The position numbers and the translations under genes were made by a program. Under the pieces are notes generated by a model. That model made no database searches. It was not told the DNA's origin and worked only from the letters and a program-made list of their open reading frames with translations. DNA of 34,153 bases from Fidelibacterota bacterium (lineage in GTDB: Bacteria > Fidelibacterota > UBA8477 > JABMPR01). The number at the start of each line of letters is the position of its first letter. The first letter of the stretch is position 1. This document shows positions 2,645 to 15,466 of the stretch, one piece after another. The stretch is from positions 1 to 34,153 of the forward strand of contig JAOZSM010000006.1 of assembly GCA_029939675.1 (NCBI GenBank), in the 5' to 3' direction.

Positions 2645-3571
2645 TTATTCCACCGATAACACATCCCCGCTAGCGATCAGGGGGTGAGGTTGCTCATTGT
2701 ACAGATAATCCAGTCCAAACAGCCTGAGAATTTCAAGTGTTCTCTGGATTTGTTCTTTGCTGACATGTTCCTGCCATTCCAGCAAGGGTGATTTGCCCTG
2801 GTTTACGGCGCTACCATCTCTGGCAAGTGCCGATGGTCGATTAAATACTTTTTCACTAATCCGGGGAACTGGTTGCTGTAGAAAAGAAAATATTCGCTGC
2901 ACTTCACGACTACGATCTGCAATAATATCTTCATAGAAGGTAATGTGGGCATCACCAGGCTTGAGCAACTTCAAAGGGATGTAATTTTCTATGCACCAAT
3001 TCACAATATGGCCTTCAAAATCACCCGTAATTTTTTCAATTTCATTCACAAATGGAGCGAGGTGATCCTTAACCAGTTCATTTTGAGAGAGAAATACGTC
3101 TGTACTACTAGGCCAGTTAAGTTGCATCCTGGAATTGGCAACGGCGCAGGGGTGTCGCATTAAAAAAATAATGGGAACTTCAGGAAAATTTTTATGCAAC
3201 CAGGGTAACTGCAAATTAGCTCTAATTTCCTTGATAATTCTAGTACGGCTAAATACTCTGCGGTTCAGCCGATTCACCCACGCGTTTCGAACTTTTCCAT
3301 CCAATATTTTTTTGGCCGGGATTAAATATTTTGCTTCCTGATTATTTTGTCTCAAGTATTGATAAGGAGTCCAATGAGCAACTAATTTGTTTTTCCGGGT
3401 ATGAAAGGGTTCGAATATTACCCGATGAGAATTATCATGATTAAGAATATTCTCAACCCAAGTAGTGCCACTTCGACCACTTCCGGCAAGCAACAGACTG
3501 CCATGACTATCCCCACTATCAAAATACACCCACTTGGGGAATCTCTTGATACTAATCATAACATTGATCAA
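2645..3571 (-). CDS. Sulfotransferase family protein
   Basis: GSGRSGTTWVENIL matches the PAPS 5'-phosphosulfate-binding loop; IIFLMRHPCAVANSRM resembles the 3'-phosphate-binding region. The track start is TTG at 3571; an ATG at 3559 (MISIKRFPKW...) is an alternative. Confidence 0.85.
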   Translation of the reverse strand: MINVMISIKRFPKWVYFDSGDSHGSLLLAGSGRSGTTWVENILNHDNSHRVIFEPFHTRKNKLVAHWTPYQYLRQNNQEAKYLIPAKKILDGKVRNAWVNRLNRRVFSRTRIIKEIRANLQLPWLHKNFPEVPIIFLMRHPCAVANSRMQLNWPSSTDVFLSQNELVKDHLAPFVNEIEKITGDFEGHIVNWCIENYIPLKLLKPGDAHITFYEDIIADRSREVQRIFSFLQQPVPRISEKVFNRPSALARDGSAVNQGKSPLLEWQEHVSKEQIQRTLEILRLFGLDYLYNEQPHPLIASGDVLSVE

Positions 3572-3731
3572 TCATGACGATCCCGCAAAAAGTGCCTCTC
3601 GCAGAGAACGCAAAGGCGCAAAGTGTTGATAATTAAGAACACAGCTCGTGTTCGCATAAATAGCTATATTTATTAATGTTAGGGTGATATTCATGTTTTG
3701 TCATATACTCTTTGCTAAGCCGTCAATCATT
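3570..3731. mobile_element. MITE-like element, copy A
   Basis: Imperfect terminal inverted repeat TGACGNNNNNGCAAAAAGT (left, ~3575-3593) versus the complement of ACTCTTTGCTAAGCCGTCA (right, ~3707-3725). Left 32 nt (3575-3606) match copy B (14254-14285) at 29/32 positions, and the interior aligns with copy B. No transposase. Confidence 0.6.
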
Positions 3732-3740
3732 TAACTTTAT

Positions 3741-4634
3741 TCAGGATGTTCTTAGAGGTGTTTGAATACCTCGAATAAATCCAAGAAACGTGTAATAGAT
3801 TGCCGATAATGAATACCTCCTGGCCACTATCTCTTTAACCAGTATTCCACTTAAATAGATAAGCGTGAAAGGAATGTATTTCTTCCGGCCATGTTTGCGG
3901 AAAAAGTAGATTGTGTTATGAGTCCGGCAGTTCATGCCTCTTGATGGGTTAGATGGTCGCACACCTCCAGTAGGAATTCTTAAATGCAACATACGTGGCT
4001 TAGGATTGTACTGAACAGAGTATCCATGATTCAGAATTGTATATCCGAAATCGCTATCTTCCATTACAGCTGTACCTATAAAATTGGTGTCAAATCCACC
4101 AACCTTTTTATAAATATCTGTTCGAACACAAAAATTACCACCTGGAACCCATTCACATGGTCCGCTATTATCAGTATCAAAATTCTTTAGAGTCTTACCA
4201 TATCGAGTAACGACCCCACCTACCAGACTGATACGCTCTTTAAAAATATTTGATCCCTCTTCAATGACCCGGCCACCAACCAGAACAAGAGCATCGTCTG
4301 CGCTTATAAATATTTCTTGATAGGCTTCAATTAAATCGGGATCAGGAATACAGTCATCATCCAGGAAAATGGCATAATCAGTCGTTACCGCTTGCATACC
4401 GACATTCCGGGCATTGGGCAAACCAGGAGTATCAATATGGATGTACTGATATAAAAATGCTGAAGATTGGAACTCTTGCAAAGCCTCCACCGGTGATTCC
4501 GATTGATCAACAATGATTACTGGAAAGCCGGATTTTGTCTGATGCGCTAAAGCCTCAAGCGTATTAAGGGTTATTAGCCCCCGATTATACGTTGGAATAA
4601 CAATACTGAACGTTTGTGGATTTGAGGTTTTCAT
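3741..4634 (-). CDS. Glycosyltransferase family 2
   Basis: N-terminal SIVIPTYNRG, DYAIFLDDDCIPDPD (DxD motif), GPCEWVPGGNFCVRTDIYKKVGGFD. Confidence 0.92.
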   Translation of the reverse strand: MKTSNPQTFSIVIPTYNRGLITLNTLEALAHQTKSGFPVIIVDQSESPVEALQEFQSSAFLYQYIHIDTPGLPNARNVGMQAVTTDYAIFLDDDCIPDPDLIEAYQEIFISADDALVLVGGRVIEEGSNIFKERISLVGGVVTRYGKTLKNFDTDNSGPCEWVPGGNFCVRTDIYKKVGGFDTNFIGTAVMEDSDFGYTILNHGYSVQYNPKPRMLHLRIPTGGVRPSNPSRGMNCRTHNTIYFFRKHGRKKYIPFTLIYLSGILVKEIVARRYSLSAIYYTFLGFIRGIQTPLRTS

Positions 4635-13529: not shown

Positions 13530-14099
13530 CTACTCCCTTAGGTAACTTAACGTTTCCTGTAATTTCAAACGCGCTCTATTCACGCGTGATTTGACAGTTC
13601 CCATTGGAATGTCGAGTATTGTACTAATGTCTTCGTAGGAAAGTTCCTGGATATCTCGTAAAATTATGATTGTTTTAAAGGGTTCAGCCAACTGCTTAAT
13701 CGCCTTCATAATTTCTTCTCCGGCATATGTATTAAATACGATCCCTTCTGTGTCCTTATCAGGGTCAACCGGTGTAAATTCATTATCCTCATATGATAAT
13801 TGAGACATGGTAAAAGTCTTACGACGCTTCCGTTTCCTTAATTCTGACCGGGCCAGGTTGCCGGCAATTGTATAAATCCAGGTAGAAAACTTGGCAATTT
13901 CACGATAAGCGTGTTTGTTTTTATAAACCTTGAGGAAGGTCTCCTGCACCAGGTCTTCAGCATCGGTCATATCATTGAGAAAGCGATAAACAAAATTAAT
14001 CAAACGGTCTTTATACCGATCGACTAGTTCCACGAAGGAATGATCATCGCCACCTTGAAATTCAGCAATTAATTGTTCATCAGTTTTAGTCTTATTCAT
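13530..14099 (-). CDS. ECF RNA polymerase sigma factor (RpoE/SigW-like)
   Basis: Sigma-2 region FVELVDRYKDRLINFVYRFLNDMTDAEDLVQETFLKVYKN and sigma-4 region ELSYEDISTILDIPMGTVKSRVNRARLKLQE. Likely start MNKTKTDEQ at 14099 rather than the track start at 14129. Confidence 0.93.
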   Translation of the reverse strand: MNKTKTDEQLIAEFQGGDDHSFVELVDRYKDRLINFVYRFLNDMTDAEDLVQETFLKVYKNKHAYREIAKFSTWIYTIAGNLARSELRKRKRRKTFTMSQLSYEDNEFTPVDPDKDTEGIVFNTYAGEEIMKAIKQLAEPFKTIIILRDIQELSYEDISTILDIPMGTVKSRVNRARLKLQETLSYLRE

Positions 14100-14119
14100 G
14101 CAACACCAAAGTAAGAGTT

Positions 14120-14190
14120 TTTTAACCACAGATGAACACCAGTTTTCATTCTTCGAGCTATGCCAAGCAGGCTGATGAACACCGATAAGG
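14120..14190. repeat. Degenerate intergenic repeat phrase 'AACCACAGATGAACACC...GATGAACACCGATAAGG'
   Basis: gatgaacacc occurs at 14131-14140 and 14174-14183, within the gap upstream of the ECF sigma gene. Confidence 0.45.
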
Positions 14191-14245
14191 GGGGAAATGA
14201 ATTTTGACGAAGCAGCATATGGCTACTCGCGTAATAATATGTTTT

Positions 14246-14411
14246 ATTAATATTGACGTCCCCGCAAAAAGTCCCTCTCGCAGAGGTACAGAGACGCAGG
14301 GAATTGATATTTATGAGTTTAGGCATGTTTGCGTTATGTGGTTGTGTTTTATGTGCTTAGGGTGCATTTTATGATTTCTCAACTACTTTTTGCGGCTTCA
14401 TCAATATTTAT
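14246..14411. mobile_element. MITE-like element, copy B
   Basis: 24-nt terminal inverted repeat with 20/24 identity: AATATTGACGTCCCCGCAAAAAGT (14249-14272) versus the complement of 14385-14408, AATATTGATGAAGCCGCAAAAAGT. Interior aligns with copy A (cgTGTTcGC..., TTAGGGTG, ATTT/CATG blocks). Confidence 0.65.
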
Positions 14412-14455: not shown

Positions 14456-15466
14456 TCAGACAACCTTTGATACCCAAGTAGAAAAGACCGTTAATAAATC
14501 CATAGAACCTAATCTAAACTGCAGATCGAGATCAGCTAATTCACGGGTGGCAAGCTGCAATTCAGTGAGCGAATACTTTCTGGAAAATGGTTGTAATTTC
14601 ATCAGGATGTAGTTTGAGGTAGCCCCCTGACCAATTGCTTTCCGGGCTTCCGGTGTTTCATGAAGAGTCATGAATTGAATCAAACGATTATAAAGCATGG
14701 CTACGAGATAGGGCAGGCCTTCCTTGCCTTGATGATGAATTTCAACCAGGGTTTGGATCGCCATCCGGCGGTCACGATTAGAGAATGCCTGAATAAATTG
14801 CTCCACTTGGGCATTCTCAACAGTACCTGCTACCTGGTCCACCAGGTCACGGTTAATTACTGAATTAGAATCATCCAGATAGAGAGCCAGTTTCTCTAAT
14901 TCATTGTCGATAATGGCTAACTCTCCACTACTGAGTTCCATAAGGCGATAAATCGCAGGATCATCAATTTCCAGCTCATGACGGGTAGCCATATCACGAA
15001 CTATTCTTGGAATGAACGCGCTATCAGAGATGCTCAGGGGGACGACTTGGGCCACATCCTGCATGGCTTTCAGCCAAATAGCTTTCCGGAAATCACTGAT
15101 AGAGTAGTGGACAAGAACTACGGTATCCGGAGGAAGTTTACCCAGAAGATCAGCTAAATTTGTTTTGACCTGCTTTCCAGAATCCTGGATCTCATGCAAC
15201 ATAACCAGACTTGCTGATGAAAAAAGTCCACCCCCACTCAGTAAAGAGCTCACATCAGTGACAGCCTTAAGATCTACGCCCCAACGTTGAACAAGATCAG
15301 CGTGCTCGCCAAATCTGGTTCTAAAGGCAGATTGGAGTTCAGTAATAAATTGGCGATATAGATAGTATTCAGATCCCATGGCAAAATACAAGGGAGCCAG
15401 CTTACCTCCACGTAGATCGGACAGTATCTGTAAGTAAAGGGGATATTGATTCTTATTGAACGCCAT
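14456..15466 (-). CDS. holA: DNA polymerase III subunit delta
   Basis: 336 aa; LYFAMGSEYYLYRQFITEL, LSSGELAIIDNELEKLALYL and the C-terminal clamp-loader delta pattern; followed by uppP two nt away. Confidence 0.85.
   Translation of the reverse strand: MAFNKNQYPLYLQILSDLRGGKLAPLYFAMGSEYYLYRQFITELQSAFRTRFGEHADLVQRWGVDLKAVTDVSSLLSGGGLFSSASLVMLHEIQDSGKQVKTNLADLLGKLPPDTVVLVHYSISDFRKAIWLKAMQDVAQVVPLSISDSAFIPRIVRDMATRHELEIDDPAIYRLMELSSGELAIIDNELEKLALYLDDSNSVINRDLVDQVAGTVENAQVEQFIQAFSNRDRRMAIQTLVEIHHQGKEGLPYLVAMLYNRLIQFMTLHETPEARKAIGQGATSNYILMKLQPFSRKYSLTELQLATRELADLDLQFRLGSMDLLTVFSTWVSKVV

Follow-up and report, generated by a model that had tools for sequence, protein, structure and literature searches.

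The interval between holA and an ECF sigma factor gene in a bacterium of Candidatus Neomarinimicrobiota very probably holds a non-autonomous MITE of about 149 bp, which duplicated its target, was probably moved by an IS1182-like transposase with matching 18-bp ends and may have ended the coupling of the two genes at their junction. The original prediction of a MITE-like element is supported by the presence of multiple copies with conserved boundaries in the host genome. In the mechanism proposed, an IS1182-like insertion sequence whose 18-bp ends match those of the MITE would have supplied the transposase, and the MITE would have entered and duplicated a 6-bp target rich in A+T (consensus AANNTT). 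The transposase would have acted in trans, and would later have been lost from the host genome or be missing from the assembly. The insertion, together with some 200 bp of other sequence, would then have ended the tight coupling of the sigma gene to holA.

Limits and parts of the element

The MITE proper occupies positions 14255-14402 (148 bp) of the stretch of 34,153 nucleotides that was analysed (the window). It is short and non-coding, with neither a transposase nor any other gene inside it, and the earlier description of a transposase-free interval between holA and the ECF sigma gene is borne out by the open reading frames and a domain search. A 24-bp inverted repeat had been claimed, pairing 14249-14272 with the complement of 14385-14408 at 20 of 24 positions, and recomputation gives the same value. 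Within the 34-kb window this is the only inverted pair of such quality (24 bp, at least 20 matches, spacing 20-200 bp), and pairs of this kind were absent from 10 first-order Markov randomisations of the window.

The pairing stands, with one refinement. Its six outermost bases at either end are a target-site duplication, which leaves a terminal repeat of 18 bp, with 14 of the 18 positions matched in this copy. The duplicated letters, AATATT, are palindromic, and were for this reason counted into the inverted repeat. The duplication, previously called ambiguous, is now resolved as a perfect one of 6 bp (14249-14254 and 14403-14408). Likewise the element as such is upheld, whilst each of the limits first given to it, 14246 and 14411, lies 3 bp too far out. 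The ends of the MITE and of the transposase clade described below are written GACG..CCGCAAAAAGT, and the element boundary was set at GACG. The left terminal inverted repeat (14255-14272, plus strand) reads GACGTCCCCGCAAAAAGT, an exact member of the family pattern GACGNYCCCGCAAAAAGT; the right one (14385-14402) reads GATGAAGCCGCAAAAAGT on the minus strand. Between them lies the non-coding body (14273-14384, plus strand), as delimited from alignments and the sequences of copies. Its left part, at about 14273-14302, carries CGCAGAG-type units and is the site at which other copies carry extra repeat modules, and its right part is conserved across copies.

The holA–sigma junction

Transcription runs on the minus strand from holA (14456-15466), which encodes the delta subunit of DNA polymerase III, to the ECF sigma factor gene (13530-14099) downstream of it. 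The sigma product is recognised by Pfam Sigma70_r2 and Sigma70_r4_2; its open reading frame was listed as 13530-14129 on the minus strand, and the likely start, an ATG at 14099, was chosen by comparison with relatives. The holA product matches Pfam DNA_pol3_delta_C with an E-value of 0.00047, under the curated cut-off, and the adjacency of holA to the sigma gene is conserved in 17 other species. In all 17 of the other species of the genus in which the junction is intact, the two genes are separated by 5-12 bp, against 359 bp in the host by an equal measure. Empty sites, proposed earlier as a check on the element, are thus present at the level of species, as opposed to strains.

Of the roughly 350 bases by which the junction is longer, 154 bp are the MITE and one copy of its duplication. 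Most of the remaining 200 bp or so (14100-14248) is single-copy in the host genome. Within this stretch lies part of a dispersed TTAACCACAGATGAACAC repeat, which other sequence appears to interrupt.

Most likely, the insertion would have cost the sigma gene its tight coupling to holA in transcription and translation, and it is plausible that sigma expression has been uncoupled from that of holA. With the coupling ended, transcription of sigma would need either to continue from holA through the element or to start at its own promoter; a search of the junction for sigma-70-type promoters found none. The context of the junction makes an effect of the MITE on the sigma gene, which had been suggested from the outset, more plausible.

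Domestication of the element as a regulator or an RNA (an attenuator, a terminator or a small RNA), retained upstream of sigma by selection, is unlikely. The transcript towards sigma does fold better than shuffled sequences (z -3.7), but good folding is built into a long inverted repeat and is to be expected of any inverted repeat. The strand read towards sigma has one weak terminator-like hairpin, although its stem is of 5 bp and is set apart from the T-run. Where copies intervene between co-directional genes, 20 of 29 are oriented against the genes, a bias short of significance (two-sided binomial estimate about 0.06, with crude gene calls). Furthermore, Rfam holds no family that matches the element, and a copy is missing from the same place in the 17 congeners. 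The element is most likely selfish, not a dedicated regulator.

Copies and target sites

The element is one of many dispersed copies. At least 45 BLAST matches to it were obtained in the host genome, mostly 75-90% identical. At up to two mismatches, the terminal-repeat pattern occurs at 184 sites in this genome of 3.2 Mb, compared with 4 for a reversed-pattern control; at up to one mismatch the counts are 109 and 0. Two-ended elements range from 132 to 252 bp, most being of 148-150 bp, and the 18-bp terminal inverted repeats are family-wide. The search for further copies with the same ends, which had been put forward as a means of checking the prediction, has therefore yielded many, with their boundaries conserved. 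Of the 53 copies with sufficient flank, 4 are inside reading frames as called, while crude gene calls assign about 83% of the fetched DNA to coding sequence. Some copies at separate sites are 98-98.6% alike, which suggests fairly recent activity. The exact MITE pattern had no match in the collected genome contigs, a set to which the host's own genome perhaps does not belong. A blastn comparison of the fetched loci, those from relatives having mostly been picked for holding an end, gave no clear case of an insertion site shared with relatives.

A second, diverged copy is present in the window at 3570-3730 on the plus strand (element 3576-3724), with a 6-bp duplication, AATCAT, on each side. It takes up nearly all the space between a glycosyltransferase gene (3741-4634, minus strand) and a sulfotransferase gene (2645-3571, minus strand), and its adjoining gene is strongly diverged across the genus. 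Elsewhere, many copies carry extra repeat modules at about positions 30-60, among them four loci in genome G002 and four in G000. These modules include a 24-bp tandem unit, CTTCGACTGAGCTCAGGAACCGCC, present five times in one of the G002 loci (L111), or GGCAGGC-type palindromes; one spot in the MITE thus seems to gather other repeats.

Duplication of the target is a property of the family. Exact 6-bp duplications flank 29 of 65 distinct two-ended copies, where 2.1 are expected (the mean of 5,000 shuffles, in which the maximum was 8), and 45 of the 65 have at most one mismatch in their 6-bp flanks, against an expectation of 11.6. The preferred target is A+T-rich, AANNTT. At all six positions, letters departing from this consensus are common to the left and right flanks more often than expected, which argues for a duplication of six bases and not for one of two bases inside a fixed AA..TT. 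Duplications of other lengths gave no comparable signal among the copies.

Across 245 genomes of the phylum, a relaxed form of the end pattern is abundant only in four genomes of the genus (G000, G001, G002 and G015). It is found in smaller numbers in G058, G063 and G150 and at single sites in a few others, the end motif being absent from most of the 245. In G058, which belongs to another family of the phylum, three loci contain related short elements; their ends are of the kind GATGAAACCGCAAAAAGT, and a CGCAGAG-type stretch lies inside them.

A probable IS1182-like partner

Autonomous elements with matching ends exist in sister species, whereas the host assembly yielded none. Screening of Pfam DDE_Tnp_1 transposases of sister species for the MITE ends identified two full-length elements, of 1,916 bp in G001 and 1,906 bp in G015, each with ends such as GACGGAACCGCAAAAAGT and one open transposase gene of 536 aa. 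Among NCBIfam models the transposase comes closest to IS1182 (E about 1e-49), and it also matches Pfam DUF772 and DDE_Tnp_1_6. Its score against the NCBIfam model is 168 bits, below the curated cut-off of 270, and the partner is therefore called IS1182-like and is not filed as a member of IS1182. Residues D153, D357 and E482 are invariant in all eight transposases compared and, from their motifs, would form the DDE catalytic triad. An Ignavibacteria record and further Neomarinimicrobiota contain more distantly related insertion sequences with similar ends. Duplications beside the insertion sequences are mostly imperfect, with one exact case (ATTTTT, in G111) and 1-4 mismatches in the rest. Two more distant transposases of the same group, at 27% identity (in G009 and G012), have a looser end, GATTCCGCTGCAAAAAGG, beside ATAGTT.

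The shared ends and the target duplication suggest that the MITE was moved by an IS1182-like transposase; beyond the ends, it has little in common with known insertion sequences. Searches of the host assembly, which is 91% complete in 348 contigs, found no IS1182-like transposase, and a terminal-repeat scan of the host for a long element led, at the 40 places fetched, to short elements or to ends that were contig-cut or recombined. As the assembly is incomplete and no such transposase was found in it, we infer mobilisation in trans. The missing partner would also suit a different, unseen insertion sequence as the mover, the likeness of the IS1182-like ends being due to coincidence or exchange. 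This is distinctly improbable, as the 18-bp end motif flanks the transposases of this clade in several families of Neomarinimicrobiota and in the Ignavibacteria record, and is missing from most genomes of the phylum. Membership of the REP/BIME class, with a RAYT (Y1) transposase as the mover, would fit a multicopy, mostly intergenic element with palindromic ends, but is highly improbable and was rejected in view of the 6-bp target duplications and the DDE partner, since 6-bp duplications and 18-bp terminal repeats in common with a DDE insertion sequence are not known as features of REP sequences.

An IS1182-like transposase thus remains the preferred mover, and MITEs with a partner of this type have been described before. 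Those of Methanosarcina acetivorans, whose partner is ISMac2 of the IS1182 family, are 160-169 bp long, occur in 7-14 copies, and have terminal repeats of 25-26 bp and direct repeats of 4 or 0 bp (PMC3852290). They resemble the present family in their short form and in the type of partner, but here the duplication is of 6 bp, the terminal repeats are shorter and the host is a bacterium of an uncultured phylum. ISPse1 of Paracoccus, an IS1182-family element, is 1,653 bp long with 16-bp ends and a 4-bp duplication (PMC3281130), whereas the partner described here is of about 1.9 kb with a 6-bp AANNTT duplication, the published examples compared having 4 bp. The Chunjie MITE of Geobacter uraniireducens is likewise short and variable in size, with one copy in an operon and others intergenic, as described in a review (PMC10969869); it is a different element. 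The family is new in its sequence, host and duplication length, though not in kind, and in a full-text literature search no paper mentioned MITEs together with the phylum.

Only tentatively can a wider pattern be suggested, in which the partner insertion sequences would form a distinct IS1182-related family with a 6-bp AANNTT duplication across Neomarinimicrobiota, Ignavibacteria and Bacteroidota, and their MITEs would have rewired operons in one genus, here at the ECF sigma/holA junction. The analysis provides a clearly bounded MITE family in an uncultured phylum, for which the ends, the target rule and a probable transposase are described, and it offers a natural comparison of a conserved gene junction upstream of a regulator with and without a MITE.
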